Shown piece by piece: positions 14,242 through 36,060 of a DNA stretch of 64,000 nucleotides. Each line of letters starts with the position of its first letter. Position 1 is the first letter of the stretch. The translations under genes and the position numbers were made by a program. The notes beneath the pieces are model-generated. The model ran no database searches. It was not told where the DNA came from and saw only the letters and a program-made list of their open reading frames with translations. This DNA is from Psychroserpens mesophilus (lineage in GTDB: Bacteria; Bacteroidota; Bacteroidia; Flavobacteriales; Flavobacteriaceae): contig NZ_JXJP01000001.1 of NCBI RefSeq assembly GCF_000826645.1, positions 186,001 through 250,000 on the forward strand. The letters are read 5' to 3'.

Positions 14242-14246
14242 TTTTC

Positions 14247-14335
14247 CATTCGTCTACACTTTTATGCATTACAACTACCATAATTTTAATCCTATAGAAT
14301 ATTTAAATTTTCATGAATAGATAGCCATAGTTTTG
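14247..14335 (+). promoter_or_regulatory. LytTR-type site and promoter, gene 14362
   Basis: CATTCGTCTACA at 14247-14258; a weaker second unit follows 21 bp later. The -7 box TAGTTTTG (TAnnTTTG) is at 14328-14335, exactly 81 bp from the first base of the element. The start codon of the 93-aa protein follows at 14362. Confidence 0.7.
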
Positions 14336-14643: not shown

Positions 14644-14654
14644 ACACCAATTAC

Positions 14655-14743
14655 CATTCGTCTACACATAAACGTCATTCGTCTACAGTTAATTCAGGTT
14701 AAACGAAATTTAATGTCCATCCTTCATATTTAGCTTATTTTTC
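14655..14743 (+). promoter_or_regulatory. Tandem LytTR-type sites before the relay operon
   Basis: Two identical CATTCGTCTACA units at 14655-14666 and 14676-14687, period 21 bp, which is two turns of DNA as expected for LytTR direct repeats. TATTTTTC at 14736-14743 (7/8 of TAnnTTTG) is 81 bp from the first unit. Predicts autoregulation of the operon starting at 14773. Confidence 0.7.
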
Positions 14744-14772: not shown

Positions 14773-15186
14773 ATGAGTAACCTTTTAAAAATTCTATTAA
14801 TAGAAGATGATGCCATTGAAGTCATGAAACTCAATAGAGCTATCACATCATTGGAATTAAAACACCAGATTATTGAAGCAAATAATGGTGAAGAGGCTTT
14901 AGAAATTTTAAAGAAAAAAGAGATACTTCCAGACATTATTTTGTTAGATTTAAACATGCCTAAAATAAATGGAATTGAATTTTTAGGGATATTAAAAGAA
15001 GATGACACTTTAAAATATATACCAACGATTATTTTGACAACATCTAATAATCAAAAAGATTTATTATCATGTTATAAAATTGGTGTTGCTGGTTATGTTT
15101 TAAAGCCTTTAAAATACGAAGAATACGTTTCAAAAATCGAAAGCCTATTATCGTATTGGAGTATCAACGAATTAATTAAAGTATAG
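14773..15186 (+). CDS. Single-domain response regulator (CheY/Rcp1/Spo0F-like)
   Basis: 137 aa, receiver domain only: acidic pair Glu11/Asp12/Asp13 (LIEDDA), phosphoacceptor Asp59 (ILLDLNMPKING), Thr in ILTTSN and Lys in VLKPLKY. No output domain, so it can only pass or hold phosphate or bind a partner. As the first gene of an operon with two non-hybrid kinases, an Hpt protein and a LytTR regulator, it is the natural second step of a four-step relay, like Spo0F (inference). Seven bases separate it from the H-NOX gene. Confidence 0.92.
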   Translation: MSNLLKILLIEDDAIEVMKLNRAITSLELKHQIIEANNGEEALEILKKKEILPDIILLDLNMPKINGIEFLGILKEDDTLKYIPTIILTTSNNQKDLLSCYKIGVAGYVLKPLKYEEYVSKIESLLSYWSINELIKV

Positions 15187-15193
15187 CACAAGA

Positions 15194-15733
15194 ATGAAAG
15201 GAATTGTTTTTACAGAATTTTTAGAGCTCGTAGAAGATAAGTTTGGGTTAGAAATGGTAGATCATATTATTTCAAGTTCAGAATTAGAGTCTGAAGGTAT
15301 TTACACTTCAGTTGGAACTTACAGTTTTTCAGAAATGTTGCAGTTATTACAACATTTAAGCGCCAGAACAGAGATATCCATTGATAATTTATTACTAGTC
15401 TATGCAGAACATTTTTTCAGTGTTATCGAAGATAGTTATCCTGGTCTTTTAGCAACTTATAAGGACCCAATCGAAATGATTTCTTCTATTGAAAATCATA
15501 TCCATGTTGAAGTGAGAAAAATATATCCTGACGCAGAGTTACCAGCTTTTGAAGTTGTCGAAAAAACCGACAATTCGCTTGTGATGATTTATAAATCTAG
15601 TCGAGCAATGCATCATTTTGGTCTAGGACTGATGAATAAAACATTTGAACATTTCAACTCTACCGCAACCATAGATTTAGAAAAGATAAAAGAAGACGGT
15701 ACAGAAGTTAGGTTTATCATACATAAGAATTAA
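15194..15733 (+). CDS. H-NOX (heme NO-binding, HNOB) sensor protein
   Basis: 179 aa, a stand-alone H-NOX domain. It opens with MKGIVFTEFLELVEDKFG, the standard H-NOX start. The proximal heme ligand is His104 (NHIHVEV), followed by the conserved proline in IYPDAELP (Pro112), and the heme-propionate motif Y-x-S-x-R is intact at Tyr133, Ser135, Arg137 (YKSSR). Stand-alone bacterial H-NOX proteins bind nitric oxide and control the kinase or cyclase encoded next to them; here the next gene, overlapping by one base (TAATG), is a histidine kinase. NO as the ligand is inferred from family; oxygen binding would need a distal tyrosine that cannot be judged by eye. Confidence 0.93.
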   Translation: MKGIVFTEFLELVEDKFGLEMVDHIISSSELESEGIYTSVGTYSFSEMLQLLQHLSARTEISIDNLLLVYAEHFFSVIEDSYPGLLATYKDPIEMISSIENHIHVEVRKIYPDAELPAFEVVEKTDNSLVMIYKSSRAMHHFGLGLMNKTFEHFNSTATIDLEKIKEDGTEVRFIIHKN

Positions 15734-17691
15734 TGAGTCAAGATCAGCTTGACATACTGCAACGTGCTTTGGAGCGCGAAAAAAAGGCGAGGAAGGCTGC
15801 CGAAAGAATTCTTGAAGAGAAATCTCGGGAACTGTTTCAAACGTCGCAACAAATCGAACAACTTTTACAAGAAAAATCTTCTCAATTACAAGGAATATTC
15901 GAAAACATTGTGGATGCTTATGTCGTGATGGATCTAGATGGAAATATACTTAAATTTAATGAAGCGGCAACTACATTGTTTGGTTATGATTTAGACATAG
16001 AATCTGTAAATGTTATGAATCTTATACATAAAGACGATTATCAATACGCAATGTCTTCTTTTCTGGATTTGCAAACAAATGGCCTTTTTAAAAACTATGA
16101 AACTAGAGTATGCACAAAATCTGGAGAAGTCAAATGGGTGCATGTTAACGGAAGTCTTGTTTTAGATAATACCAATACACCTATTGCTGCTCAAGGTATT
16201 GTTCGTGATATTACAGATCAAAAAACCTCAAAAGAAAAGCTTATTGAATCTGAAAACAGATTAGCAGCACTTGTTTTAAATCTCGATAGTGGTATTGTAT
16301 TAGAAGATGAAAATCGAAAAATAGTCTTGACCAATAAAAAATTCTGTGAACTTTTTAATCTTAGCGCGCAACCTGAAGATTTAATAGGTATGGATTGCAT
16401 TGCAGCATCAGAACAAAACAAACTATTATTTAAAAATCCAAAAGCTTTCTTAGAACGAATGAAAGAAATAAATCTGGATAAAAAACCTGTAGTAGGTGAT
16501 GAGTTAGAAATGCTTGATGGTAAAATATTAGAGCGCGATTATATGCCAATTACTATTGGAGAAAAATCTAAGGGTTTCCTTTGGACTTTTACAGACGTCA
16601 CCTTAAAAAGGACTTATAGAAAAAGTTTAGAAGCACAAAAACAAAAATATTACAGCATTATTGCTAACATGCACTTAGGTTTGGTTGAAGTTAATAATGA
16701 GGATGAAATCCTGATGATTAATCAAAGCTTCTCTGAGATGTCTGGTTATACGCAGGATGAGGTCATTGGTAAAAAAGGAAGTGAATTATTTCCTGTTGAA
16801 GGTGGTTCTGAAATTATCTCCCAAGAAAATGAAAATAGGAAACAAGGAAAATCGAATTCTTATGAGATTAAAGTTAAAACCAAACAAGGTGAGATTCGAT
16901 ATTGGTTAATAAGTGGAGCACCAAACTATAACCTGAAAGGAGAAGTTGTTGGGTCTATAGGTATTCATTTAGACATAACAGATTTAAAAACCTTAGAGTT
17001 TCAAAAAGAATCATTGCTTTTAGAACTTGAAAAAAGTAACAACGAACTTCAAGAATATGCACACATCGTTTCTCATGATTTAAAATCTCCTTTACGAAGT
17101 ATAGATGCACTTGTAACCTGGATAAAAGAAGATAATAAGGGCAAACTGGATGATGTTAGTTTGCAAAACTTCACTCATATTGAAGGAACTTTAGAAAAAA
17201 TGGAATTACTAATTTCAGATATTTTAAATTATTCAAGTATTGGTGCTTTTCAGATTGAAAAAGTTGAAGTTAATACAGACCTATTAGTAAAAGAGATAAT
17301 CAAAATTATATATGTACCTGAACATATTTCTATTGCTATAAATAAAACATTGCCAACTTTGAAAGGCGACAAAGTTAAACTTCAACAATTGTTTCAAAAC
17401 CTTATAAGCAACGCAATTAAATTCATAAATAAACCTGAAGGTGAAATTGTTATAGACGTGACATCTAAAGACGGTTTTTATGAATTCTCAATTTCAGATA
17501 ATGGCATAGGTATTGAAAAACAATTTCATGATAAAATTTTTAAAATTTTTCATGCACTAAATAAAAGTAAAGACTCAACAGGTATTGGTTTATCAATTGT
17601 GAAAAAAATTATTGACCAGCACGAAGGAAAAATTTGGTTAGAAAGCGAATTAAATAAGGGGACAACGTTCTTTTTTACATTAAAAAAATAA
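15733..17691 (+). CDS. Multi-PAS histidine kinase, H-NOX-associated
   Basis: 652 aa, no membrane helix. Order: charged coiled coil (about 5-50, with EREKKARKAAERILEEKSREL, shared in type with kinases linked to sensory partner proteins), PAS1 (about 51-160), PAS2 (about 170-290), PAS3 with PAC (about 295-420), HisKA with YAHIVSHDLKSPLRSID (His448), HATPase_c with N-box QLFQNLISNAIKF, DNGIGI and STGIGLSIVKKI. No receiver is fused. Overlaps the H-NOX gene by one base, so H-NOX very likely controls it. The kinase core is highly similar to that of the second kinase at 18833. Confidence 0.93.
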   Translation: MSQDQLDILQRALEREKKARKAAERILEEKSRELFQTSQQIEQLLQEKSSQLQGIFENIVDAYVVMDLDGNILKFNEAATTLFGYDLDIESVNVMNLIHKDDYQYAMSSFLDLQTNGLFKNYETRVCTKSGEVKWVHVNGSLVLDNTNTPIAAQGIVRDITDQKTSKEKLIESENRLAALVLNLDSGIVLEDENRKIVLTNKKFCELFNLSAQPEDLIGMDCIAASEQNKLLFKNPKAFLERMKEINLDKKPVVGDELEMLDGKILERDYMPITIGEKSKGFLWTFTDVTLKRTYRKSLEAQKQKYYSIIANMHLGLVEVNNEDEILMINQSFSEMSGYTQDEVIGKKGSELFPVEGGSEIISQENENRKQGKSNSYEIKVKTKQGEIRYWLISGAPNYNLKGEVVGSIGIHLDITDLKTLEFQKESLLLELEKSNNELQEYAHIVSHDLKSPLRSIDALVTWIKEDNKGKLDDVSLQNFTHIEGTLEKMELLISDILNYSSIGAFQIEKVEVNTDLLVKEIIKIIYVPEHISIAINKTLPTLKGDKVKLQQLFQNLISNAIKFINKPEGEIVIDVTSKDGFYEFSISDNGIGIEKQFHDKIFKIFHALNKSKDSTGIGLSIVKKIIDQHEGKIWLESELNKGTTFFFTLKK

Positions 17692-17693
17692 CA

Positions 17694-18833
17694 ATGAAAA
17701 CAGTACAGTTAGTTAAACAAAAACATAAGAATAACCAGTGGACATACGTTGGTCAAAATCAAAAATTAAAAGAACCGTTAGTTCTCGTATTTGGAAACAG
17801 GTATATGTTAGAAGAGGATTCTGTATATGAAGAAATAAGAAAATTGTTTCCAGATGGTCATATCATATTTGGTTCTGCCTGTGCGGAAATTTCATTAAAT
17901 ACAGTAAACGAAGAGAGTATTACGATAACAGCAATAGAATTTGAAAAAAGTAATTTTTTAATTAAAACGAGTAATGTTTTAAATTCAGATTTAGATAGTT
18001 TTAAAACGGGAAATGAACTTATTCAACAATTTCCAGAAGAAGGTTTGAAGTATGTATTCGTGGTGTCTGAAGGGAGTTTTATTAATGGAAGTCAGCTTAC
18101 CAAAGGCATGAATACTTCTACCCAAAATAATTTATTAATTACGGGAGGATTGTGTGGAGATGATGCACGTTTTGAAAAAACTCTAGCTTCGTACAATGAA
18201 AACCCAAAGGAGGGAGAAATTGTAGCTATTGGATTTTATGGTGAAACTTTAGAGGTGTCGTTTTCAATTCATGGTGGCTGGACACCTTTTGGCCCAGAAC
18301 GAATCGTTACAAAATCAAAAGATAATACATTGTATGAGTTAGATGGTCAACCTGCTTTAGATTTATATAAAACCTATTTAGGCGATAAAGCGAGAGATTT
18401 ACCTGGTACAGCTTTGCTATATCCATTAAATGTGACTTCAACTGAAGAAAAACAATCTATAGTGCGGTCGATTTTGAATATTAATGAAGAAGATAATGCT
18501 GTAATACTAGCTGGAGATATTCCTGTTAACTCAAAAGTGCAATTAATGATGACTAATGTCGATAATATTGCTAATGCTTCAGAACAAGCAGCAAGACAAG
18601 CATTAGAATTCAGAAAAAACAAACCTGAAATCGCCTTTTTAGTCAGTTGCATTGGTAGAAAATTAGTTTTAGATCAAAGAGTAGAAGAAGAAATAGAAGA
18701 AGTGATAGAGGTTTTAGGTAATAATACAGTTACATGCGGTTTTTATTCATACGGAGAAATAGCTCCTTTCCATGGTGAAGTAGCCTGTCAATTACACAAC
18801 CAGACGATGACCATAACATTAATGAGTGAATAA
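17694..18833 (+). CDS. FIST domain sensor protein (NosP-like)
   Basis: 379 aa with FIST N (about 20-210: VLVFGNR...IIFGSACAEISLNTVNEESITITAIEF...GGLCGDDA) and FIST C (about 230-375: LYELDGQPALDLYKTYLGD...GRKLVLDQRVEEEIEEV...GFYSYGEIAPFHGEVACQLHNQTMTIT). FIST proteins are cytoplasmic ligand sensors; one branch, NosP, has been described as a heme protein that senses NO and acts on a co-encoded kinase. This gene is followed by a kinase with a one-base overlap. Whether it binds heme cannot be decided from sequence by eye, so 'NosP-like' is inference from domain and context. Confidence 0.9.
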   Translation: MKTVQLVKQKHKNNQWTYVGQNQKLKEPLVLVFGNRYMLEEDSVYEEIRKLFPDGHIIFGSACAEISLNTVNEESITITAIEFEKSNFLIKTSNVLNSDLDSFKTGNELIQQFPEEGLKYVFVVSEGSFINGSQLTKGMNTSTQNNLLITGGLCGDDARFEKTLASYNENPKEGEIVAIGFYGETLEVSFSIHGGWTPFGPERIVTKSKDNTLYELDGQPALDLYKTYLGDKARDLPGTALLYPLNVTSTEEKQSIVRSILNINEEDNAVILAGDIPVNSKVQLMMTNVDNIANASEQAARQALEFRKNKPEIAFLVSCIGRKLVLDQRVEEEIEEVIEVLGNNTVTCGFYSYGEIAPFHGEVACQLHNQTMTITLMSE

Positions 18834-19879
18834 TGAATTCTTTGCTAAAACGACAAATTCGTAAATATTTAAGTGATGAATTAAAGCACAATGAGTCTTT
18901 GAAAGATTTTATTAATGCTGTTGATAGTTCATACGACAATTTTGACGAGCAGTCGGCAATGATTCAAAGAGCAATGTCTATTAGTTCAGACGAATTATTT
19001 ACTGCTAATAGACAATTACAAAAAGAAGCTAGCGAGCAAAAGCAATTAATTGATAAGCTAAAAAACGTTATTAATACACTTAAGTTTTATGACCTTAAGG
19101 AAGGCAATGCAATAGAAAATCTGGATTTAAGTGGTTCGAAACTGGTTGATTTTATTGATAATCAAACCAAAGAAATTGTTGAAATAAATAAGCAAAAGGA
19201 ATCTCTTTTAAATGAATTAGCGCATCAAAACCAAGAACTTAGTGATTATGCGCATATGGTATCACACGATTTAAAATCTCCATTACGAAGCATAGACACT
19301 TTGACAGCCTGGTTAAAGGAGGATTATCATGATAAATTAGATGAAAATGGTAAAAACAGTATCAAACTTATAAGAAACAATGTTGAAAAAATGGATACCC
19401 TAATTAATGGTATTCTAGAGTACTCTACCATTGGGAAAAATCAGATTGAAATTTATGATGTCCATATTAATACGCTTATAGATAATATTCTTAAGATTAT
19501 TCAGGTTCCAGAACATATCAAAATTATTAAACAGAACTTACCTATTATAAAAGGCGATAAATACAGACTGCAACAATTGTTTCAGAATTTAATTGATAAT
19601 GCCATCTCCTACAATGATAAAGAGAAGGGGCTTATTGAAATTGGTGTCCAAGATTCTGGAGATTTTTGGCAGTTTTATGTTAAAGATAATGGCAAAGGAA
19701 TTCCAGAGGTTTATTTTGAAAAGATTTTTAAAACCTTTGAAAAATTAGAAAGTGGAGATCAATCAACAGGTATTGGATTATCAATAGTAAGAAAAATAGT
19801 TGAGCTTTATGGTGGTCAAATTTGGGTAACATCTAAAGTCAATGATGGTACTACCTTTCATTTTACACTCAAAAAATAA
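18833..19879 (+). CDS. Histidine kinase, FIST-associated
   Basis: 348 aa, soluble. A helical N-terminal region (about 1-95, including AMSISSDELFTANRQLQKEASEQKQLIDKL in part) replaces PAS domains, then a coiled coil (KQKESLLNELAHQNQELSDY), HisKA with YAHMVSHDLKSPLRSID (His145) and HATPase_c (QLFQNLIDNAISY, DNGKGI, STGIGLSIVRKI). The core is nearly the same as in the H-NOX-associated kinase, including the following WLKEDYHDKLDE / WIKEDNKGKLDD segment, indicating a duplication. It overlaps the FIST gene (TAATG) and is 2 bases before the Hpt gene. Confidence 0.93.
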   Translation: MNSLLKRQIRKYLSDELKHNESLKDFINAVDSSYDNFDEQSAMIQRAMSISSDELFTANRQLQKEASEQKQLIDKLKNVINTLKFYDLKEGNAIENLDLSGSKLVDFIDNQTKEIVEINKQKESLLNELAHQNQELSDYAHMVSHDLKSPLRSIDTLTAWLKEDYHDKLDENGKNSIKLIRNNVEKMDTLINGILEYSTIGKNQIEIYDVHINTLIDNILKIIQVPEHIKIIKQNLPIIKGDKYRLQQLFQNLIDNAISYNDKEKGLIEIGVQDSGDFWQFYVKDNGKGIPEVYFEKIFKTFEKLESGDQSTGIGLSIVRKIVELYGGQIWVTSKVNDGTTFHFTLKK

Positions 19880-19881
19880 TT

Positions 19882-20199
19882 ATGGAACAACCTAATTTGT
19901 CTTATATACATAGCATGTCCGGTGGTGATAAAGCTTTTGAACAAAAGTTAATCAATATTATTAAAGTAGAATTTCCAGAAGAAAAACAAATCTATTTTGA
20001 TAACATAACTGCTGAAAACTATAAACTTACTGCTGAGAATGTTCATAAACTTAAACATAAAATTAGTATTTTAGGCCTTGAGAAAAGTTATGAGATTGCA
20101 GTAGCGTTCGAAAATAATTTGCTTGAGGGTGAAACAACACTGCGAGACGAATTTGAATCTATTTTAACCATCATGACTAATTATTTACAACAGTTATAA
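19882..20199 (+). CDS. Stand-alone Hpt phosphotransfer protein
   Basis: 105 aa, four-helix Hpt fold. The phosphohistidine is His55 in ENVHKLKHKISILGL, matching the Hpt pattern H-K-L-K-G with His in the place of Gly. Moves phosphate between receivers; in this operon it would connect the single-domain receiver with the LytTR regulator. Fifteen bases separate it from the LytTR gene. Confidence 0.88.
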   Translation: MEQPNLSYIHSMSGGDKAFEQKLINIIKVEFPEEKQIYFDNITAENYKLTAENVHKLKHKISILGLEKSYEIAVAFENNLLEGETTLRDEFESILTIMTNYLQQL

Positions 20200-20214
20200 T
20201 TAGGTATAAAATTT

Positions 20215-20922
20215 ATGAATTGTATTATTATTGATGATGAGGCTACAGCTAGAGCAATCATTGGCCAATTGTGTTCTAATGTAGAAAGTTTAAATGTCTT
20301 AGAAGAATTTCCAAATGCAATTCAGGCTATTAAGTATTTAAATCAAAATGAAATTGATTTGATTTTCTTGGATATTCACATGCCAGATTTTACCGGGTTT
20401 GATTTCATTGAAACCTTAAAAAATCCACCAAAAATAATACTGACAACCTCTGATGCCAACTTTGCCATTCAAGCTTTTGAGTATGATTGTATTGTAGATT
20501 ATCTCGTAAAGCCTATAACTCCTGAGCGTTTTCAAAAGGCCATTCAAAAAGCAGAATCTAAGACAAGTGTTTCCGCGTCATCCAATTCAGAAAAAGTTGA
20601 AACGACGTCTGGGAATGACTTATATGTAAACATTGACCGTAGACTTATTAAAATTGATATTCCAAGTATTTATTTAGTCGAAGCTAAAGGCGATTATATC
20701 CACGTTAAAACTGAGAATCAAAATTATACAGTGCATTCAACCTTGAAAAAGATTGAAGACAAATTACCTAATGATTTATTCTTAAAAGTCCACCGATCAT
20801 TTATCATTAATGTTGATAAAATCATTGATATTGAAGATAATAGTGTCCTTATCAAAAAAGACGTTATCCCTGTTAGTCGCTCTAATCGACCAGAATTAAT
20901 GAAACGTCTTAATTTACTTTAA
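20215..20922 (+). CDS. LytTR-family response regulator
   Basis: 235 aa. Receiver 1-118 with Asp7/Asp8 (IIIDDEA), phosphoacceptor Asp53 (FLDIHMPDFTG) and Lys in YLVKPI; a Ser/Thr-rich linker; LytTR DNA-binding domain about 135-235 (IDIPSIYLVEAKGDYIHVKTE...HSTLKKIEDKLP...FLKVHRSFIINVDKI...ISRSNR-like PVSRSNRPELMK). LytTR domains bind pairs of short direct repeats about 21-22 bp apart, and such repeats (CATTCGTCTACA) precede this operon and several nearby genes. It is the expected terminal output of the relay. Confidence 0.95.
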   Translation: MNCIIIDDEATARAIIGQLCSNVESLNVLEEFPNAIQAIKYLNQNEIDLIFLDIHMPDFTGFDFIETLKNPPKIILTTSDANFAIQAFEYDCIVDYLVKPITPERFQKAIQKAESKTSVSASSNSEKVETTSGNDLYVNIDRRLIKIDIPSIYLVEAKGDYIHVKTENQNYTVHSTLKKIEDKLPNDLFLKVHRSFIINVDKIIDIEDNSVLIKKDVIPVSRSNRPELMKRLNLL

Positions 20923-20925
20923 AAC

Positions 20926-21014
20926 CATTCGTCGATACTTAACTGTCAACCAACGAAGTAAATGTTCATCCAAGCGAAAAGAAGCGTTCAGTAAACTCAT
21001 CGGTATTATATTTG
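20926..21014 (+). promoter_or_regulatory. LytTR-type site and promoter, short transcript
   Basis: CATTCGTCGATA at 20926-20937, second unit CAACCAACGAAG 21 bp later, and TATATTTG at 21007-21014, exactly 81 bp from the first unit. A terminator follows at 21058, before any gene. Confidence 0.65.
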
Positions 21015-21090: not shown

Positions 21091-21119
21091 TATACAAGGT
21101 TGTAAAAAGTTAGAAAAAC

Positions 21120-21208
21120 CATTCATCTACACTTATTTGTCAGCCAACGTTCTAAGCTTTGTGTCAATCGAAAATCAATTAATACACTGCCCTAACAAGA
21201 TATATTTG
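21120..21208 (+). promoter_or_regulatory. LytTR-type site and promoter, gene 21230
   Basis: CATTCATCTACA at 21120-21131, second unit CAGCCAACGTTC 21 bp later, and TATATTTG at 21201-21208, again exactly 81 bp from the first base. This places the transcript start near 21215, just before the ATG at 21230. Confidence 0.72.
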
Positions 21209-21229: not shown

Positions 21230-23833
21230 ATGATGAGTAAATTTTACACGATAAAAAATCTATTAATTGTATTGGGATATTTTTTGATAAGTTTAATCAC
21301 AAATGCTCAAGATATTCCATTCAATTGTGATTACAACGCTTACTTATTTCAATTTAATGATGTGTACGCTATAGATTTAGCTTCAGGGAATTCATATCAA
21401 GTTGCGGCAGATGTAACAACAGGAAACATTAATGCAGCAGCTTATAATCCTGCTGACGGCTTTATTTGGGGATCTTTAACGTCTCCGGAAAAATCTATTG
21501 TTCGTATTGGTAAAAACTTTACAACAACAACGTTTTATATAGAAGAATTACCAACAAGTAACAGATATGTTGGTGACGTTAGTAGTGAAGGGATCTATTA
21601 TCTTAAAGGCGGTGGGACAACGTATTACAAAATTGATCTTAATCCAGATTCTGAAAACTATATTCAACATCAGGCTACAGAAACTTTATCTCAAAACATA
21701 AATGTTCATGATTGGGCATTCAATGCTGTAGACGGCATGATGTATACAGTTGAGAAGAATTCTAACATATTATATCGTATCGATCCTTCAAATGGAAACG
21801 TTCAAGCTATCGGCGAAGTGCCAATCTTATCAGGATTAAGCTACACATATGGTGCAGTTTATTTTGATGCAGACGGTCGCTTTTATGTTTCAGCAAATCA
21901 AACAGGAACTATATATGTCATTCAAAGTGTTCAGAATTTAACTGTAAACGGAGGAATGAATTCTAATTTGTTCGCTTTCGGACCTTCAAGTTCAAGTAAT
22001 GATGGAGCTCGTTGTCCAACAGCTCCTGTACTTCAGGAAATTTGCGATAATGGAATTGATGATGATGGTGACGGGCTTATTGATTGTGAAGATCCGTCAT
22101 GTTCTGGTTTTGGCGATTGTGCAGTGATTGTTCCACCAACTTCAGGAGGAAACGCTGGAGGACTTGAAAGTAATAATAGACTTTCAGAACAAATTAATAA
22201 GCGAAACTTTAATCGCGCTAAAACAAGTTTTAAATTTGATATGAGTTCAGCAAGACGAATAGAGAAATCTAATAGTTATGCACAACGCAATGCGAACTCT
22301 TCATTTACTCTTGAAGATTTTATTCCTATCGAAACTATTAATGAAGATGAGGTTATTGAGTCAACACCTTCAGATTTATTGAGCATAACGAATGCTACAG
22401 ATATATACGCCGTAGATTATCTCAAAAACGGCAGTCCGATAGCTTCAATATTGGCTTTAAAAACCGAGAATGGCGTTTACGAGCACACCAAATATATATG
22501 TGATAGATTATTAGGAGCAGAATTAATTTCGGTGTCAACTATAGATATTAATGAGCAGTCATTTATTAAATCAATTATAAAAAATGTAGATGGAACTTTT
22601 GAATTTGTTTTAAGCTTATCAGCAAAAGTGATTAATAACGATGAAAACTTTGCCATCGAGAGTCACTGGAATTTAGATCAGTACGAACAAGACGTGACAT
22701 TTTATAACTTTCAGATTTGGTCAAACTCTATGGATGATTTATATCGTTTAGGAGAAGAAGTTCTTAACTTGATTAACATTGAAAAACCAATTTCAGATTA
22801 TAACAACTCATCAGCACCAACCGTATTTGTTAGAAAAGGAAGATATACAAATGGTGCATTAGATTTACAAATTATTAATACAAATGCAACAGATAATGTA
22901 ACCTTTGATGCTGGTTTCAGAATAACAGAAACGAGTGAATTTGATAACATGAGTTCTACAATTGATTTGAATTCCAACTACATTACAAACCTTCAAGTAG
23001 AAACTGGTAACCTTTTTGATGTCGGATTCAGAATTGGCGATGGCATAGCAACACCAGATGATTTATTTATGTCTGATGGTCCATGGGGAATTGATGATTC
23101 GCAAGCGGGTACAACAGTATCGACATATGACGTACTACCAAATGTTTTTAATTTTGAAACCGATGAATTTCCTGTTGAACGTAACGTGCAATTACATGCA
23201 AGTACAAATACCTATGTTGCTGCATACAGAGCGTTAACACCTAGGTTTAAGGCCGTAGATTTAACCTTTTTCAATAGTTTGAAATTTCAAGCTGAAGGCA
23301 CAGGGACTTTAGAAATTACCTTAGTAAAACAAAGTATTTCTAGTTGGGAAAATCAATTTAAAACAACTATTGATTTATCATCTAACTTATTAGATTATGC
23401 ATTGCCAATATCGAGTTTTACATCTGCAATTGGAGGTGAACTAGTATTAAACGATGTAGTTACAATCGTGTTTACCATGGTGTCTGAATCTGGAATGACA
23501 GAAACAAAAATGTTAACGTTAAATGATTTACGTTTTTCAAAGGAAGATGCGTTATCTGTTGTTAGTTCTAAATTGGAACAAAACCAAATGATAGCCTACC
23601 CAAATCCAATGACCTCTAAGACAACTATTCAGTTTACTACGAATAAAACGGAAACTGTTCAATTTGTAATATATGATCAATTAGGAAAAGTTGTGTTTCA
23701 AACCAATTATAGAACAACACCTGGGACCAATAAAATTCAATTAAACAAACAACTGTTTCGTTCAGGTCTATACATCGCCAAATTAATAAGTCAGCATAAC
23801 CTTTATAATCCCCTAAAATTGATAGCTAGATAA
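21230..23833 (+). CDS. T9SS-exported protein with DUF6923-like propeller and MopE-type motif
   Basis: 867 aa from ATG 21230 (or 21233). Signal peptide (IVLGYFLISLITNAQ). Residues about 25-260 look like a DUF6923-type beta-propeller (FQFNDVYAIDLASGNSYQV; AYNPADGFIWG; YKIDLNPDSENYI; GAVYFDADGRFYVSAN). At about 270-291 is a MopE-type metal-binding motif, EICDNGIDDDGDGLIDCED. A LruC-like or adhesin-like region of unknown fold follows (LKNGSPIASILALKTENGVYEHTKYICDRLLGAE in outline). The C-terminus (about 795-867, YPNPMTSKTTIQF ... SGLYIAKLI) is a T9SS type A sorting domain. The frame is open further upstream, but the predicted promoter at 21201 rules out that longer start. Its own LytTR-type promoter makes it a likely matrix or surface protein of the regulon. 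Confidence 0.85.
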   Translation: MMSKFYTIKNLLIVLGYFLISLITNAQDIPFNCDYNAYLFQFNDVYAIDLASGNSYQVAADVTTGNINAAAYNPADGFIWGSLTSPEKSIVRIGKNFTTTTFYIEELPTSNRYVGDVSSEGIYYLKGGGTTYYKIDLNPDSENYIQHQATETLSQNINVHDWAFNAVDGMMYTVEKNSNILYRIDPSNGNVQAIGEVPILSGLSYTYGAVYFDADGRFYVSANQTGTIYVIQSVQNLTVNGGMNSNLFAFGPSSSSNDGARCPTAPVLQEICDNGIDDDGDGLIDCEDPSCSGFGDCAVIVPPTSGGNAGGLESNNRLSEQINKRNFNRAKTSFKFDMSSARRIEKSNSYAQRNANSSFTLEDFIPIETINEDEVIESTPSDLLSITNATDIYAVDYLKNGSPIASILALKTENGVYEHTKYICDRLLGAELISVSTIDINEQSFIKSIIKNVDGTFEFVLSLSAKVINNDENFAIESHWNLDQYEQDVTFYNFQIWSNSMDDLYRLGEEVLNLINIEKPISDYNNSSAPTVFVRKGRYTNGALDLQIINTNATDNVTFDAGFRITETSEFDNMSSTIDLNSNYITNLQVETGNLFDVGFRIGDGIATPDDLFMSDGPWGIDDSQAGTTVSTYDVLPNVFNFETDEFPVERNVQLHASTNTYVAAYRALTPRFKAVDLTFFNSLKFQAEGTGTLEITLVKQSISSWENQFKTTIDLSSNLLDYALPISSFTSAIGGELVLNDVVTIVFTMVSESGMTETKMLTLNDLRFSKEDALSVVSSKLEQNQMIAYPNPMTSKTTIQFTTNKTETVQFVIYDQLGKVVFQTNYRTTPGTNKIQLNKQLFRSGLYIAKLISQHNLYNPLKLIAR

Positions 23834-25147: not shown

Positions 25148-27211
25148 TTATTTTCTAAATACTGGTCCGTCAAATAAACGCCATTTAAACCGTAAGCCAA
25201 GTTCAGTAAAGGTAAAACCAGAAGCTGTAGCTGAAGCGATATTACTATGTGTTCCATAGAGATTTAACATGCTGCGTTCTGAAAACTTATAACCTAACTT
25301 TCCCTGAAATCTGTATGTGGATTGCCTTTCATCATCTTCAATAAATTGTACACCAGTAGCAGCTGTTAATTCATAAAACCATTGTTTTGCTTTAGCTGTG
25401 TTTTCATCTTTAATGAGATTTAAAAATATTTCTCCTGCATTAAAACGTTCGGGACTAAAATAAATCGTTGGTACTTGATCCTTAAACGTGATGTATTGAT
25501 AATTGAATCCAACTTTTAAAGATGGTTTTCGAAGTACGTTGTAATACAGCGATGTGAATAGTAAATTTCTATTGTTGCCATCATTTTGTGAGGTGTACAT
25601 ATATTGTGTAAACCAACCTAAGTTAAAGTTTGTACTCAAATTATAATTTGCATAATAGTTGTTTTGAATGATCTCACGATCTAACAAATCGGCATTAAAA
25701 CTTTGCACTTCGCTTTTGTAACCAATATCTAAAGTTTGTAATTTAAATGGTTTGATATTAAATGACACATCGGTTAGTAATTGGGTGTAATCATTGTTTT
25801 CTGCTTTTGCTGAGGTTAATCCTGTTGTACCATTAAATGTTACATTATTTAGTAATTGATAAGATAGGCCTATTGAGAAATCATTAGAACTCGCACTATT
25901 CTTAGTGAATGTATTTGTAGTATTTCTATAATTATAATTACCTAATATTTTCAGTTTAGTCGATAATGGAAATGCGACCATAGTATTAAAATAATAAGCG
26001 TTGTTGTCGCCATTATCAAATGTATATGCAGCTCGTGAATCTAAAGTTGGAGAAAAATTAATGTTCAATTGGTTGATGAAATTAACAGCATCTTTTTGAT
26101 TATCGTAAATGTTTAATGTTTGCTCTGCTGCTGAATACGCATCATCATAAAACCCTAAAGCTTTTAAAACATTGGCTTTTCCAAGGTTTCCATCAAAAGA
26201 TGTACTATCGTTTACTAAGATTCTATTATAATCTTCAAGGCTCTTTTTAAAATTACTTTTGTAAACATTTAATGTTGCTCTTAAAGCTAATATCCAATTT
26301 TCATTTGACTCTTTTTCGATTAACATATTGATTACTTTTTCAGCTTGCTTATACTTTCTATTCCAAATTAAAGCTTGAACATGACGTTCTGTAGTTTGTT
26401 GAATTTGCTTCGCTTCGGTTTCAGATGTTAAACTATCATAAGCTTGTTGGCTAATTTGTAATGCCTTGATATCTTTTTCATTTAAATGCGACACCAAAGA
26501 TAAACCGTTTAATGATTCTAATTGATTGTCATTATTTTCTCCTAATCTTTCATAAGTGGCCTTTGCATCATCTAACTTATTCCAAATCAAATACAGATTA
26601 GCAAGGTTTAATAAAGTTTCTTTGTCTTCTCCAAACAACTCTAAGTTTTTGGTTAATAATAATTCGGCTTTATCATAATTTTGTGTTTGCTGATTTTGAT
26701 AAGCATAACCTAAATAGATATACTTTTTAGAAACCAGTGCATTTGGGTTTTCAGGTAAAACATCTAATGCTTTATTGACATAAGTTAAGGCAGTATCATA
26801 TTCCTTTAAATTAGATAAGGTATTTGCATAACCTAATAGTGCAGGAAAGCTTTGAGGAGATTCAGTAACTAAATCTGAATAGTAGAATTTGGCAGCTTTA
26901 AACTTTGAGTTCCATAATAAGGATTCACCATAATTTAACTTCACTTCAAAATCGTTTGGGTAATCATTTAAAAGATTTGTAAATATTACATTAGCTGCTT
27001 CAGCATTACCATTTAACCCAATAGCTCTTCCGTAACATAACCGAGCTGTTTTATGTTCTGGATAGTCAGTTAATATCGTTTCAAAAAAAGTTTCCGCTTG
27101 CGCATATTGTCCAGTTTCTAAATAGGTAAATCCTTCTTGCATTTCTTGTGCATTACTCATAAAAAAGAGTAGTAAAAGCATACTTATAATTACTGATTTT
27201 AAAGTCTTCAT
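25148..27211 (-). CDS. TPR and outer-membrane beta-barrel protein, possible polysaccharide exporter
   Basis: 687 aa from the ATG at 27211 (MKTLKSV; longer upstream frames lose the signal peptide). Signal peptide ends near FFMSNAQ. About 25-400 are tetratricopeptide repeats (YLETGQYAQAETFFETIL; ALLGYANTLSNLKEYDTAL; LANLYLIWNKLDDAKATYE). About 410-687 is a beta-barrel of 14-16 strands ending in ELGLRFKWRLFDGPVFRK. A periplasmic TPR scaffold joined to a C-terminal barrel is the architecture of the exopolysaccharide outer-membrane exporters BcsC, PgaA and PelB; the final barrel is like YaiO-type proteins. The neighbouring STAS, flippase and glycosyltransferase genes support that role, but no direct homology to a specific exporter is claimed. 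Confidence 0.75.
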   Translation of the reverse strand: MKTLKSVIISMLLLLFFMSNAQEMQEGFTYLETGQYAQAETFFETILTDYPEHKTARLCYGRAIGLNGNAEAANVIFTNLLNDYPNDFEVKLNYGESLLWNSKFKAAKFYYSDLVTESPQSFPALLGYANTLSNLKEYDTALTYVNKALDVLPENPNALVSKKYIYLGYAYQNQQTQNYDKAELLLTKNLELFGEDKETLLNLANLYLIWNKLDDAKATYERLGENNDNQLESLNGLSLVSHLNEKDIKALQISQQAYDSLTSETEAKQIQQTTERHVQALIWNRKYKQAEKVINMLIEKESNENWILALRATLNVYKSNFKKSLEDYNRILVNDSTSFDGNLGKANVLKALGFYDDAYSAAEQTLNIYDNQKDAVNFINQLNINFSPTLDSRAAYTFDNGDNNAYYFNTMVAFPLSTKLKILGNYNYRNTTNTFTKNSASSNDFSIGLSYQLLNNVTFNGTTGLTSAKAENNDYTQLLTDVSFNIKPFKLQTLDIGYKSEVQSFNADLLDREIIQNNYYANYNLSTNFNLGWFTQYMYTSQNDGNNRNLLFTSLYYNVLRKPSLKVGFNYQYITFKDQVPTIYFSPERFNAGEIFLNLIKDENTAKAKQWFYELTAATGVQFIEDDERQSTYRFQGKLGYKFSERSMLNLYGTHSNIASATASGFTFTELGLRFKWRLFDGPVFRK

Positions 27212-27256
27212 ATCTGTTAGATTTGTATAACTGCAAGTTACGGACGAATACCACTT

Positions 27257-27289
27257 CATTCATCTACAGCAAACTACCATCCGTCGAAA
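27257..27289 (+). promoter_or_regulatory. LytTR-type direct repeat between exporter and STAS genes
   Basis: CATTCATCTACA at 27257-27268 and CATCCGTCGAAA at 27278-27289, 21 bp apart. It lies between the divergent genes at 27211 and 27365. Unlike the other sites there is no TAnnTTTG at the expected distance (27338), so the controlled promoter is unclear. Confidence 0.5.
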
Positions 27290-27364: not shown

Positions 27365-27643
27365 ATGGCTTTACAAATTTTAGAAGAAAACGGAACATTT
27401 CAATTACATGGAAGTTTAACTACAACAAACACCAAATCGTTTATTATACACTTTGAACATATTATCAAATCCATGAAAGATGTGACTGTAAATATTGATA
27501 AAGTTGATGTTATTGACCACAACGGAGTAGAAGCGCTTAAAGCTTTGATGCGTTTGGCTTTACATTCTAACCATATCTTTTCGGTTATTGGAAATGGATG
27601 TAAAGAGATTTATGATGATTATAAAAGTTCATTTGCTGCTTAA
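27365..27643 (+). CDS. STAS domain protein, atypical
   Basis: 92 aa, anti-sigma factor antagonist fold (GTFQLHGSLTTTNTKSFIIHFEHII; VTVNIDKVDVIDHNGVEALKALM). The position normally holding the phosphorylated serine (D-S-S-G) reads D-H-N-G, so regulation by an RsbW-type kinase is unlikely. It ends with the motif GNGCKEIYDDYKS, shared with the second STAS protein at 41938. It is 28 bases before the flippase gene and probably co-transcribed. Upstream TTAGCGTCA (27322-27330) resembles TTAGCGCCA before the paralogue. Confidence 0.8.
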   Translation: MALQILEENGTFQLHGSLTTTNTKSFIIHFEHIIKSMKDVTVNIDKVDVIDHNGVEALKALMRLALHSNHIFSVIGNGCKEIYDDYKSSFAA

Positions 27644-27671: not shown

Positions 27672-28919
27672 ATGCAAGTTATTTCAATTATTAAAAACAA
27701 ACAGTTGTCTCCAGAACAGTTATTTATGTTAAGTGTATTGGCTGTAAATGGAGGAAATTATTTGTACAATCTCATTTTAGGACGTGTTTTAGGTCCTGAA
27801 CAATTTGCAGATGCAGCAGTGTTAATTACCTTTTTATTGGTTTTGTCATTTGTTGCCATGACGTTTCAATTGGTGACGGCAAAATTCTCTGTCGTTTTTG
27901 AAAAAAATATTTTCAATACTTTCATTTCCAGAATATATAAAAACGCTACAATTGTTGGTGTTGGTTTAGGTGTTTTAATCATAGTATTTTCAAATCAATT
28001 GCAGCAGGTTTTTCATACTTCAAGTACGACCATGTTTGTCATTTTTGGTATTGGTGTTCCACTATATTTTCTAATGAGTGTGAATCGGGGCATTTATCAA
28101 GGTCAAAAATCCTTTAAAAAGTTATCGGTTACTTATCAGGCTGAAATGTTAAGCAGATTAGGCATTACATTAGTATTACTGTTTTTGTTTACTGTTCAAT
28201 CTTCAGTGGTTATAGCTATTGGAATATTAATCTCTTTCGGATTTGGATTAGTGCCATTTGAACTTAAAAATTTACGCTTCAAAACTTCGGTATCACTTGA
28301 AAGAGAACAATCAAAGCAAGTTCGAAATTTTTTCATCATTACAGCATTTTATGAACTGACACAAATCATTATAAACAATAGTGATATTCTATTAGTAAAA
28401 CATTATTTTGAATCGTATGAAGCAGGCTTGTATGCATCTTTAGCTTTAATTGGTCGTATTGTTTATTTTATTGCCTGGATGTTTGTTATGTTATTATTAC
28501 CAACAGTAGTTCAACTTAAAAAGGAAGGGAAGGCAACAGCTCCAGTCTTATTTAAATATGTTGGGTATATTGTTGTCATTGCATTGACTATTATTTTGGC
28601 CTGTGCTTTGTTCCCTGAAACAGCAATCACACTATTATTTGGGGAGCAATATTTAGCAATGGCACCATTACTATGGAAATATGCTTTGGCAACCGGAGTT
28701 TTTGCCATCTCAAACATTTTTGCGTATTACTATTTGTCTTTAGATCGGTATGTACCAGTAATTTTATCAGGTCTCTTCGGACTGCTTCAAATGGGATTGG
28801 TTATCTTCTTTCATGAGAGTTTAGAACAAGTCGTTCATATGCAAATTGTAGCCATGTTTATGCTATTACTATTTCAAATGATCTATTTCAGTTTTGATTC
28901 TAAATCGAAATCTTCATAA
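27672..28919 (+). CDS. Polysaccharide flippase-like membrane protein (MATE/MVF fold)
   Basis: 415 aa with about 12 membrane helices. The N-terminus VLAVNGGNYLYNLILGRVLGPEQFADAAVLIT is the characteristic opening of Wzx/PST-type polysaccharide transporters, and helices 7-8 (NNSDILLVKHYFESYEAGLYASLALIGRIVYF) match the family as well. Such proteins move lipid-linked sugars or support polymer export across the inner membrane. Position next to a GT4 enzyme and a TPR/barrel protein suggests a role comparable to PelG, on functional grounds only. Confidence 0.85.
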   Translation: MQVISIIKNKQLSPEQLFMLSVLAVNGGNYLYNLILGRVLGPEQFADAAVLITFLLVLSFVAMTFQLVTAKFSVVFEKNIFNTFISRIYKNATIVGVGLGVLIIVFSNQLQQVFHTSSTTMFVIFGIGVPLYFLMSVNRGIYQGQKSFKKLSVTYQAEMLSRLGITLVLLFLFTVQSSVVIAIGILISFGFGLVPFELKNLRFKTSVSLEREQSKQVRNFFIITAFYELTQIIINNSDILLVKHYFESYEAGLYASLALIGRIVYFIAWMFVMLLLPTVVQLKKEGKATAPVLFKYVGYIVVIALTIILACALFPETAITLLFGEQYLAMAPLLWKYALATGVFAISNIFAYYYLSLDRYVPVILSGLFGLLQMGLVIFFHESLEQVVHMQIVAMFMLLLFQMIYFSFDSKSKSS

Positions 28920-28941
28920 AGCTAAATCGCAAGCTTCTTTC

Positions 28942-29010
28942 CATTCATCTATAGTAAAAAGCATCCTGTCTACACTCGTCAATTTTACTCAGATTTATAG
29001 TGCAAATTTG
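28942..29010 (+). promoter_or_regulatory. LytTR-type direct repeat and promoter, GT4 gene
   Basis: CATTCATCTATA at 28942-28953 and ATCCTGTCTACA at 28963-28974; the TCTAYA cores are 21 bp apart. CAAATTTG at 29003-29010 is a 7/8 match to TAnnTTTG and lies 61 bp after the first unit. Transcript start would be near 29017, before the ATG at 29048. Confidence 0.55.
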
Positions 29011-29047: not shown

Positions 29048-30253
29048 ATGAAGTTAGCAATCGTTACAGCATATCCACCAAGTAAAGTCACTTTAAATGA
29101 ATATGCTTTCCATTTAGTAAAACAGTTTAGACAAAAAGATACCGTTTCTGAAATTATACTCCTAACAGATAAAACTGAAGGCGCGAAAGATTTGGCGTTT
29201 ACTGAAGATGGATGTAAAATAACAGTGAAAGAGTGTTGGTCATTTAACAGCTACACTAACCTTATCAAGGTCACAAAAGCAATTCATACTTCAAAACCAG
29301 ATGCAGTGCTGTTTAACTTACAATTCATGAAATTTGGTGATAAAAAAATCGCTGCAGCTTTAGGTTTGATGTTACCGTTAGTTTGTAAATTGAAACGTGT
29401 TCCAAACATTGTATTATTACATAATATTTTAGAAGAAGTCGATTTAGGATCTGCTGGATTCACCACTAATAAATTTATGCAAAAAGTTTATGGATTTATA
29501 GGAACAAGCTTAACGAAATTAATTCTTCAAGCAGATACCGTTGCAGTAACCATGCATAAATATGTTAGCATTTTAGAAGAAAAATATAAGGCGAAGAATG
29601 TCCAGTTAATTCCACATGGAACGTTTGAAATTACTGAAGAACATCCCGATTATACCATACCTGAAGGACCATTACAAGTGATGACTTTTGGAAAGTTTGG
29701 AACTTACAAAAAAGTAGAAGCTATGATTGAAGCAGTAGAACTGGTTCGCGCGTCTTCAGGATTAGATTTAGAAGTTGTAATCGCAGGAACAGACAATCCA
29801 AATGTGCCAGGATATTTAGCTAAGGCTCAGGAAGATTATAAACATGTGCCTCAAGTTCGATTTACAGGTTATGTTGAAGAAGATGAGGTGCCAACATTGT
29901 TTAATGAAAGTGCGGTTGTTGTGTTTCCATATACATCTACAACAGGAAGCTCTGGCGTTTTGCATCAAGCAGGAAGTTACGGAAAAGCCGTTGTGATGCC
30001 AGATTTGGGAGATTTAGCGTTGTTGGTTAAAGATGAAGGTTATCAAGGTGAGTTTTTTGAGCCAACTTCAGTGGAAAGTTTAGCAACAGCAATCGAAGCT
30101 ATTGTAACCAATGAAACTTATAGAATATCTTTAGGAAAAGCAAATTATAAAGCCGCTACTGCATTTCCTATGTCTAAAATTACAGATATGTATTTGAATG
30201 CATTTCAAACTATAATAACTAGTAAGGCAAAATTAGAATCGTCTATTGCTTAG
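29048..30253 (+). CDS. GT4 family glycosyltransferase
   Basis: 401 aa, GT-B fold. N-terminal acceptor domain (MKLAIVTAYPPSKVTLNEYAF), and in the C-terminal nucleotide-sugar domain VMTFGKFGTYKKVEAMIEA, LEVVIAGTD, VRFTGYVEEDEVPTLFNES and the donor-binding region VVFPYTSTTGSSGVLHQAGSYGKAVV in which the usual E-x7-E is replaced by a Ser/Gly-rich loop. Probably adds a sugar to an exopolysaccharide precursor. A GTG at 29000 is in frame but falls before the predicted transcript start, so ATG 29048 is chosen. Its 3' end overlaps the convergent hydrolase gene by 11 bp. Confidence 0.87.
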   Translation: MKLAIVTAYPPSKVTLNEYAFHLVKQFRQKDTVSEIILLTDKTEGAKDLAFTEDGCKITVKECWSFNSYTNLIKVTKAIHTSKPDAVLFNLQFMKFGDKKIAAALGLMLPLVCKLKRVPNIVLLHNILEEVDLGSAGFTTNKFMQKVYGFIGTSLTKLILQADTVAVTMHKYVSILEEKYKAKNVQLIPHGTFEITEEHPDYTIPEGPLQVMTFGKFGTYKKVEAMIEAVELVRASSGLDLEVVIAGTDNPNVPGYLAKAQEDYKHVPQVRFTGYVEEDEVPTLFNESAVVVFPYTSTTGSSGVLHQAGSYGKAVVMPDLGDLALLVKDEGYQGEFFEPTSVESLATAIEAIVTNETYRISLGKANYKAATAFPMSKITDMYLNAFQTIITSKAKLESSIA

Positions 30254-35900: not shown

Positions 35901-36060
35901 AGTTCCAAGGTTCAAACCAACTATTGGCATAATGGTCAGCGAAGAATAAATGAATTAGCGCATCATAAGTTGTTTCCAAAGTGAAAAAGATGGAACTTCC
36001 ATGAAATGCTAAACCTAAAAGTAGAGCTACAATTAAATATTTATTCGTTGTTTCTTTCAT
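32971..36060 (-). CDS. Large GT-C-like membrane protein (PTPS-related domain) with periplasmic tail
   Basis: 1029 aa. The first about 560 residues hold 12 or more membrane helices. The first loop reads TTYDALIHLFFADHYANSWFEPWNYKWYTGF, the acidic first-loop motif (D..H) of GT-C glycosyltransferases, and the protein resembles the '6-pyruvoyl-tetrahydropterin synthase-related' membrane family. Another helix lies near 605-625 (HIWSLVLALLVCLAMYQFYI), followed by a soluble part that contains an NTF2-like stretch (NAIIAYYDALDFKEFETAFNLINP) and FxLYD-like beta domains (VLEVLSAKLVKYENHYAIVGEI). Proposed role: polymerisation or transfer of an undecaprenyl-linked sugar on the periplasmic face. First gene of the minus-strand operon; TATCTTTA (7/8 of a -7 box) occurs twice on the minus strand at 36088-36108. 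Confidence 0.75.
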   Translation of the reverse strand: MKETTNKYLIVALLLGLAFHGSSIFFTLETTYDALIHLFFADHYANSWFEPWNYKWYTGFTVMSYPPLVHQSIALLSMIGGLKFGLFTVAIISILLFITGVYRFSLLITGNRTTAGYAALLAVFSSSFVETLHLFGQLPSIVGISVLMHALPEIYLWLKTGKYWYLATSLSLIAVTVTSHHVTPIFGMIFFIFPLIGMVIMDVSRESVDTIKAVTIRVFIQSFLKLLKRIISFGLLSLIIIIGCILPYWINSKNNPITQVPIPHGSRDNFLEITSSGLVFFIIPWGILLILLPYLFYRYYSKRYLFFGLSFTLLTILGTGGTTAIPKTILGETAFNILTLDRFTLWASIMALPIMGEFAYRFVQGDLKTLIQSKFGAVYHRIIGGILAGLFIFMTIFTMSLSYFRPSQPDTIKMLPIVNFLNQDNHDQWRFLTLGFGDQMAWLSAQTNAMTVDGNYHSARRLPELTTRPIERLENSKFKGVAGIGSLQQFLTRPEKYNLKYIFSNDKFYDPILYFCGWQRLRQLENGIMVWERLNIPPVSSILPKDDVAKWQKILWGTIPLLTVLLAFLLNIHMLWINALKTKFKASPAFLNFKHDYSKFSPTVLKVTHIWSLVLALLVCLAMYQFYIKNDSQHNPENAIIAYYDALDFKEFETAFNLINPNSNMTISQYMLEVSVTDGLLSSYAKLDAIETMVTTQTNNMATVKVITKWITPLEKINKVDYKILSKLNGKWYLEPDQLNTDLPPDQLYSANSTSYHNQGRRRITTEQTHHEDVLKQPVLEVLSAKLVKYENHYAIVGEIQNIDNVPADVVLKGTLYNDVNKELASYNAKYHMKHKLMPKETTAFKINFEGIAWSRTKDSIPDTFNPDEFTPVEFEEQPTKFNLQAAGNVSGSDLFKNLTLSNIEISEKEINGQLFNSGLQEITIPQLLITYYDEHKTILWVDHLFVKEGIRQQRKQDFEYAILNESKVNVINDIMDNIYVNGLPNDQISRKIISKRIDNHANSELQPVSHPNYSFIKIETNSYIGNPN

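Follow-up and report, generated by a model that had tools for sequence, protein, structure and literature searches.

A candidate nitric oxide-responsive phosphorelay operon and its proposed adjacent exopolysaccharide regulon in Psychroserpens mesophilus

The locus and its genes

The stretch of DNA considered here, referred to as the window, comprises 64,000 nucleotides of the marine flavobacterium Psychroserpens mesophilus (positions 186,001 to 250,000 of contig NZ_JXJP01000001.1), within a genome of 3.68 Mb that is 99.97% complete. At window positions 14773-20922, on the + strand, lies a seven-gene operon encoding in turn a stand-alone receiver (rec), an H-NOX protein, a histidine kinase, a FIST protein, a second histidine kinase, a predicted histidine phosphotransfer protein (Hpt) and a LytTR response regulator, followed by a cluster of exopolysaccharide and surface-protein genes interspersed with copies of a direct-repeat operator (Table 1). 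Taken together, these elements probably constitute a multi-step phosphorelay responsive to nitric oxide (NO), with the neighbouring exopolysaccharide and surface-protein genes as its dedicated regulon.

The window proteins were scanned with Pfam and NCBIfam. All seven open reading frames listed in a preliminary description of this DNA, made from its letters alone, are present on the + strand at the coordinates it gave, and their tight packing stands, the successive gaps being 7, -1, 2, -1, 2 and 15 bases; out of the three TAATG stop-start overlaps it had counted, inspection of the junctions leaves two, both between a sensor and its kinase (H-NOX/kinase 1 and FIST/kinase 2). The profile search it called for identifies the protein at 15194 as HNOB and the one at 17694 as FIST plus FIST_C, and the gene order it proposed to look for in other Flavobacteriaceae recurs in dozens of genera, which excludes a chance arrangement. 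The seven-gene operon is real.

Table 1. Genes and operator sites of the operon and of the downstream cluster, in window positions; E values of operators refer to searches of the whole genome or of the window
Feature	Position	Strand	Basis and remarks
Operator, one strong repeat, LytTR-type	14245..14266	+	115 bp before open reading frame 14362; E 0.005 genome, 8.9e-5 window
Small protein, 93 aa	14362..14643	+	Homologues also follow the operator in other genera; 12 operator targets grouped by homology
Main operator, two direct repeats CATTCGTCTACA, 21-bp period; weak third repeat downstream	14653..14691	+	118 bp before rec; genome best, E 1.8e-9
rec, stand-alone receiver (Asp59)	14773..15186	+	Response_reg 1.2e-22 (Pfam)
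H-NOX, heme NO sensor (expected)	15194..15733	+	HNOB 1.9e-38 (Pfam)
H-NOX-associated histidine kinase, three PAS + HisKA + HATPase_c	15733..17691	+	Pfam; TAATG overlap with H-NOX
FIST (N + C domain), putative NosP-type sensor	17694..18833	+	FIST PF08495 6.1e-42, FIST_C PF10442 3.8e-36
Second histidine kinase, HisKA + HATPase_c, paralogue of the first	18833..19879	+	Pfam; TAATG overlap with FIST
Hpt phosphotransfer protein (His55), predicted	19882..20199	+	Conserved His, predicted fold
LytTR response regulator (Asp53)	20215..20922	+	Response_reg + LytTR (Pfam)
Operator, second copy	20924..20948	+	304 bp before surface protein; sequence model
Operator	21118..21142	+	110 bp before likely start (21230) of surface protein; sequence model
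Secreted surface protein, DUF6923 + type IX secretion tail	21230..23833	+	Operator target; homologous cluster c9 counted 12 times
TPR/outer-membrane export-type protein	25148..27259	-	TPR matches, weak PgaA similarity; conserved in exopolysaccharide cluster
Operator	27257..27287	+	108 bp before STAS gene; E 9.6e-5 genome
STAS-domain protein, borderline	27365..27643	+	Pfam 22.0 bits, cut-off 22.6; homologues behind operator in many genera
Polysaccharide flippase	27672..28919	+	Polysacc_synt_3 2.3e-13
Operator	28940..28976	+	106 bp before glycosyltransferase; E 0.059 genome, 0.001 window
GT4-type glycosyltransferase	29048..30253	+	Glycos_transf_1; nearest named NCBIfam model EpsE, far below cut-off
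Three cluster genes: glycosyl hydrolase-like (30243), 405-aa protein (31754), 1029-aa membrane protein (32971)	30243..36060	-	Pfam, conservation
Operator	36125..36157	+	About 115 bp before receiver-glycosyltransferase; E 1.0e-5 genome
Receiver fused to GT2 glycosyltransferase	36238..37422	+	Response_reg 1.4e-22 + Glycos_transf_2 3e-21; operator target

The two sensors

The H-NOX protein scores 132.4 bits against the HNOB profile (cut-off 25.5) and carries both the axial His and the Y-x-S-x-R heme propionate motif. Its best PDB matches, over its whole length, are 6bdd and 6bde (E 4e-98), the former being the crystal structure of the Kordia algicida H-NOX (PMC7356049); in the PDB copy, both entries bear the molecule name 2,4-dihydroxyhept-2-ene-1,7-dioic acid aldolase, evidently a misnaming. 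The protein is about 85% identical to that of the K. algicida locus, Ala71 included, and would, like so close an orthologue with a solved H-NOX domain, be predicted to bind heme and NO.

In 100 H-NOX homologues, His104, Pro117, Tyr133 and Ser135 are invariant and Arg137 is found in at least 90%. The residues highlighted in the preliminary description, namely His104, Pro112 and Y133-x-S135-x-R137, are indeed conserved, with the reservation that the canonical heme-contacting proline should be Pro117 instead of Pro112, as we take it from the distance to the axial His in the numbering offset to the Caldanaerobacter H-NOX. By the same offset, and not by structure, Phe142 presumably sits at the position of Caldanaerobacter Tyr140, so that the distal Tyr is absent; since the H-NOX proteins that bind O2 have a Tyr there, an NO-selective sensor is expected.

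Regarding the second sensor, the FIST protein has the stand-alone FIST plus FIST_C architecture of NosP proteins, and its gene adjoins that of a kinase devoid of PAS or any other recognised sensor domain, as in NosP-type operons. Its predicted model (pLDDT, predicted local distance difference test, of 90) has the FBXO22 structures as nearest solved fold, the fold search returning the FIST domain of FBXO22 and Toblerone-fold relatives, with no solved NosP among the matches. NO sensing by this protein is plausible. Two points speak against it: the score against the NosP equivalog model of NCBIfam amounts to 57 bits for a cut-off of 450, and the search of conservation and fold gave no assignment of a heme ligand, His368 being the sole invariant His in 43 homologues and belonging to a C-terminal motif common to distant FIST proteins. 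The equivalog model appears narrow, since two proteobacterial FIST proteins, encoded on plasmids of Legionella (38% identity) and Azospirillum (36% identity), reach 75 and 55 bits, also below the cut-off, and the failure to attain it was consequently dropped as proof against NO sensing. In other words, the initial designation of both sensors as NO-type is well supported for H-NOX and unproven for FIST.

It is a real possibility, short of the one we would favour, that the same operon and regulon operate with a FIST protein that is not an NO sensor and reports heme or another ligand, the two inputs then integrating different signals. CdpA of V. cholerae, a FIST protein, was reported to be heme-responsive (PMC8846402), and the title of a paper on the B. 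thailandensis NosP, as cited in PMC12570481, refers to a response to heme; besides the missed NosP cut-off, the FIST gene and its kinase form an optional cassette for which the operon tree shows 18 changes of state, in keeping with an input of its own. Yet the presence of FIST in one operon with H-NOX and paralogous kinases on a single relay is equally expected from redundancy in NO sensing, and the stand-alone FIST proteins characterised beside a kinase without sensor domain do sense NO (PMC12570481).

The proposed phosphorelay

Within the genome, each of the two kinases of the operon finds its best match in the other, with 53% identity over the core compared with at most 31% for the twelve others, and the helices bearing their phosphorylated His are identical at 20 of 27 positions, where the other kinases show 11 matches at most. 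Across loci, the second kinases form one clade (support 99). From this paralogy, the similarity of the helices and the single clade, one ancient duplication and a shared partner is the simplest reading. A search for co-evolution of the two kinase helices within each operon gave no signal, identity being equal within and between operons. Stop-start overlaps are most frequent where a sensor gene meets its kinase gene, in 51/99 and 39/54 loci, against 25/95, 15/55, 11/53, 16/38 and 9/86 loci at the remaining junctions, which argues for one kinase per sensor and agrees with the initial proposal that each sensor is coupled to its own kinase.

All the residues required for a His-Asp-His-Asp relay, as first outlined from the sequence, are in place (the HisKA His, Asp59, His55 and Asp53) and conserved across loci. 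The receiver has D12, D59, T90 and K111 invariant in 95 loci, with D13 in at least 90%; His55 of the Hpt is present in 91/91 loci; and D8, D53, T78 and K99 of the LytTR regulator are invariant in 87. The Hpt candidate has no Pfam match, and its predicted model is a helical bundle (pLDDT 95.7); among PDB structures it best matches HPT domains of hybrid kinases from Shewanella and E. coli, together with HptB of P. aeruginosa (TM, template modelling score, of 0.77). These top matches have TM values of 0.70-0.77 and Foldseek E values of 0.03-0.6, which are weak, as is usual with short four-helix bundles; the model points to an Hpt fold for the protein at 19882..20199.

The phosphate would presumably travel from kinase to receiver, Hpt and LytTR. 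Direct transfer from kinase to LytTR is the common two-component layout, and the kinases of the operon might likewise phosphorylate LytTR directly, leaving the stand-alone receiver and Hpt as a side branch or phosphate sink. One genome (L294) keeps a kinase-Hpt-LytTR set beside the exopolysaccharide cluster, as this would predict, the stretch starting at the kinase so that a receiver may lie farther upstream. We consider such a layout distinctly unlikely here: a receiver and an Hpt with invariant phospho-residues are kept in nearly all loci, also where H-NOX or FIST is missing, and an Hpt outside the relay would have no obvious partner.

The operator

Ahead of the operon in most relatives stands a direct repeat with a 21-bp period, CCATTCGTC[G/T]ACACTTAA, occurring twice. 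A 12-mer match of at least 9/12 was found in 86 of 100 homologous upstream regions, the reverse complement matching in 7 and scrambled motifs in 2-24. A weight matrix built from 81 homologues (consensus ACCATTCGTCGACACTTAANTGCCATTCGTCTACACTTAA) detects seven separate sites in the window with scores of 22.8-51.6, controls reaching 2.7 at most. Besides, a sequence model built from 59 homologues, leaving out the genus of the window, was run over the whole genome: its seven best matches (E 1.8e-9 to 0.059) all fall within 22 kb of the window (14245-36157), all in forward orientation, and the next-best match, elsewhere in the genome, has an E of 0.81. Six start codons, those of the operon, the small gene, the surface protein, the STAS/flippase pair, the glycosyltransferase and the receiver-glycosyltransferase, lie 106-118 bp after operators, the starts at 21230, 29048 and 36238 being chosen conserved N-termini inside longer open reading frames. 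Downstream of the operator, a search for the Bacteroidota promoter TAnnTTTG gave few matches.

In relatives, operator sites number 185 forward and 2 reverse. Across a family sample of 299 Flavobacteriaceae genomes, scored at E 0.001 with strict filters, the operator is present in 86 of the 105 genomes with H-NOX vs. 8 of the 194 without (p 5e-46, uncorrected for relatedness). Among the 140 matches listed in H-NOX genomes, 120 lie at most 40 kb from H-NOX, all on the operon strand; those at operon promoters are partly circular since the model was trained on such promoters, which does not apply to the 50 that are not operon promoters. As for the operator-positive genomes lacking H-NOX that were opened, three (L258, L259 and L260) still carry Hpt-LytTR, from which it appears that the operator follows the regulator and not the sensor, and the incomplete L261 carries the exopolysaccharide cluster.

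With 16 LytTR proteins encoded in the genome, and since related LytTR domains may read similar repeats, the direct repeat could be a generic LytTR site serving several regulators, in which case the exopolysaccharide genes would not be specific to this operon. We hold this to be very unlikely, as both genome-wide location and phyletic pattern disfavour it: the operators are confined to this one place, the seven best matches all adjoining the operon, their presence tracks that of H-NOX, and Hpt-LytTR persists in those operator genomes lacking H-NOX that were opened.

The exopolysaccharide cluster

Of 20 genomes fetched, 17 have this cluster after the operon, with operators mostly at the same places, and the other three have a different exopolysaccharide cluster (a Wzc-like protein and others, assigned by eye) with the same operators; over these 20 genomes, 76 sites are forward and none is reverse. 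In other genera, operators precede nucleotide-sugar dehydrogenase-like and mannose-1-phosphate guanylyltransferase-like genes, both named by eye. The 1029-aa membrane protein, taken as a marker of the cluster, occurs in 76/299 genomes, of which 68 also have H-NOX, and for 57 of its copies the H-NOX gene lies 11-32 kb upstream; in L294, which lacks H-NOX, kinase-Hpt-LytTR comes directly ahead of the cluster. The operators and the exopolysaccharide cluster are conserved across genera.

Regarding individual members, the fusion of a receiver to a GT2 glycosyltransferase could act post-translationally as a second output of the relay; some genera have a separate stand-alone receiver instead of the fusion. 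The 93-aa protein encoded ahead of the operon has no Pfam or NCBIfam match, and weakly conserved homologues occupy the corresponding position in some ten other genomes, with a duplication in L115. The STAS-like proteins at 27365-27643 and 41938-42231 resemble each other, only the former lying behind an operator. For two proteins of no known family, a search of PHROGs gave no match.

Distribution and variants

H-NOX was found in 105/299 genomes of the family sample (108 genes over the cut-off) and FIST in 87/299. For 58 of the 108 H-NOX genes, a FIST gene lies within 8 kb on the same strand, 57 of these being 1.3-2.7 kb downstream. The order rec, H-NOX, kinase, [FIST, kinase], Hpt, LytTR holds in 100 neighbourhoods with few exceptions. 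Among 80 loci from named genomes, the seven-gene form occurs in 43 and the five-gene form in 25, in genera such as Winogradskyella, Olleya, Algibacter, Polaribacter and Tenacibaculum; the full set of seven is present in Kordia algicida OT-1 (L179). FIST and its kinase are an optional cassette in a five-gene core made of rec, H-NOX, kinase, Hpt and LytTR. A phylum sample of 296 genomes, family included, has H-NOX in 22; the full operon with its operator also occurs in L252, which belongs to another family of the class.

Four genomes without H-NOX (L258, L259, L260 and L294) have rec-kinase-Hpt-LytTR, kinase-Hpt-LytTR or Hpt-LytTR and would represent natural cases of sensor loss or exchange; operators are clear in three of them. 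Other arrangements include operons with three kinases in two genomes of one large genus (L242 and L244), where FIST and two kinases are followed by Hpt and LytTR, as well as two to four tandem FIST genes in genomes with no H-NOX match (G037, G042, G069, G101, G225 and G261).

The preliminary description knew of no account of both sensors in one Bacteroidota operon ending in a LytTR regulator. The frequency of the operon, with FIST alongside more than half of the H-NOX genes, does not support rarity and rules out uniqueness: it is a standard operon of Flavobacteriaceae. Proximity of FIST genes to group 1 hnox already appears in a published neighbourhood network (PMC8738867, Fig. 6), and representatives of that group include Cellulophaga and Runella (PMC7108781). 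Both this record and the frequency in the family would fit an ordinary multi-sensor two-component operon, of which the present locus would merely be a new member with sensors already known. That reading seems rather unlikely to us, as no description of the five- or seven-gene relay, its operator or its exopolysaccharide regulon was found in a literature search made mostly without subscription papers. Both the sensors and their closeness have in part been described before; what sets the locus apart is the operator, the exopolysaccharide regulon linked to it and the missing cyclic-di-GMP enzymes, which go beyond the observations of the preliminary description.

Proposed mechanism and significance

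H-NOX and NosP are well-known inputs to cyclic-di-GMP and biofilm control in Proteobacteria. In the P. mesophilus genome, neither GGDEF nor EAL gave a match (HD-GYP was not searched), hence the canonical output of these sensors is not available and a cyclic-di-GMP output is ruled out for this genome. Within the family sample, a GGDEF match over the cut-off occurs in 3/299 genomes and in none of the 105 with H-NOX.

In the proposed mechanism, NO would bind H-NOX and modulate the autokinase activity of the translationally coupled PAS kinase, FIST would modulate the second kinase in response to NO or another heme-linked ligand, and both kinases would load the single stand-alone receiver, which would pass the phosphate via Hpt to Asp53 of LytTR. 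The latter would bind the 21-bp-phased repeats, which lie some 110 bp ahead of its own operon as well as of the exopolysaccharide and surface genes, and would switch the transcription of both. Since NO-bound H-NOX inhibits its kinase elsewhere (PMC8846402), NO would be expected to lower LytTR phosphorylation, and if LytTR activates, NO would lead to less exopolysaccharide and to dispersal of the cells. Activation instead of repression by LytTR, as well as lowered exopolysaccharide under NO, are guesses by analogy. As far as sequence goes, the gene content, the operon, the phospho-residues, the kinase paralogy, the operator and its positions, the linkage to the cluster and the absence of GGDEF and EAL can be read from the DNA itself.

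Besides the two points raised about FIST, several others weaken this interpretation. Similar receivers and kinases encoded elsewhere in the genome could cross-talk with the relay; binding of the operator by this very LytTR is deduced from co-conservation; and the polysaccharide nature of the cluster is assigned solely from family similarity. In addition, 19 of the 105 H-NOX genomes have no operator match at E 0.001, some of them being fragmentary and the filters strict, and 20 of the 140 matches listed for H-NOX genomes are either distant from H-NOX or on a different contig.

We nevertheless lean, with some reserve, towards a broader view of an NO-responsive relay in which NO sensors have been rewired to a His-Asp-His-Asp pathway, a LytTR regulator, a 21-bp-phased operator and a linked exopolysaccharide and surface regulon, with H-NOX and FIST-kinase as exchangeable inputs on a constant Hpt-LytTR-exopolysaccharide core and with the receiver-glycosyltransferase maybe as a second output. 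Flavobacteriaceae are major marine polysaccharide users and algal partners; they often have H-NOX and almost never GGDEF, which raises the question of what NO sensors do there. If true, the proposed relay would explain a link between NO and biofilm in bacteria devoid of the usual messenger cyclic-di-GMP. The operator and the linked genes make the question testable in terms of the promoters bound, the effect of NO on exopolysaccharide and the convergence of the two sensors, and Kordia algicida, with a solved H-NOX and the same operon, is a natural model.

Comparison with known systems

The HnoX-HnoK-HnoB/C/D system of Shewanella oneidensis resembles the present one in that a separate H-NOX controls an adjacent kinase, NO-bound H-NOX lowers phosphate flow and the output is biofilm, as proposed here. 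Its output is cyclic-di-GMP turnover, whereas here the relay would end, via receiver and Hpt, on a LytTR transcription factor, with no GGDEF or EAL found. NosP-NahK, NosP-NosK-NosR and NosP-VpsS-LuxU similarly have a FIST protein beside a kinase without its own sensor domain, the last one (Vibrio) also working through an Hpt-mediated relay; unlike in these NosP systems, there is here no hybrid receiver and no cyclic-di-GMP or LuxO output, and the NosP cut-off is missed. The H-NOX/HqsK-LuxU pathway of Vibrio harveyi and V. parahaemolyticus likewise feeds H-NOX into an Hpt relay with a transcription regulator at its end, but there the receiver forms part of the kinase, the downstream steps involve LuxO and small RNAs, and the pathway has neither LytTR nor a local operator-linked exopolysaccharide locus.

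The closest likeness of the sensor itself is the Kordia algicida H-NOX (6bdd, 6bde), which shares Ala71 and His104 and belongs to the same operon type; the literature search found no account of its genomic or regulatory context. As for the regulator, BtsR (YehT)-type LytTR proteins use direct-repeat operators and have the same receiver plus LytTR architecture, the present protein scoring 128 bits against the BtsR model, below the equivalog cut-off of 246. Unlike BtsR, which is served by a LytS-type kinase, the LytTR regulator of this operon is apparently fed by a relay of HisKA kinases, receiver and Hpt.

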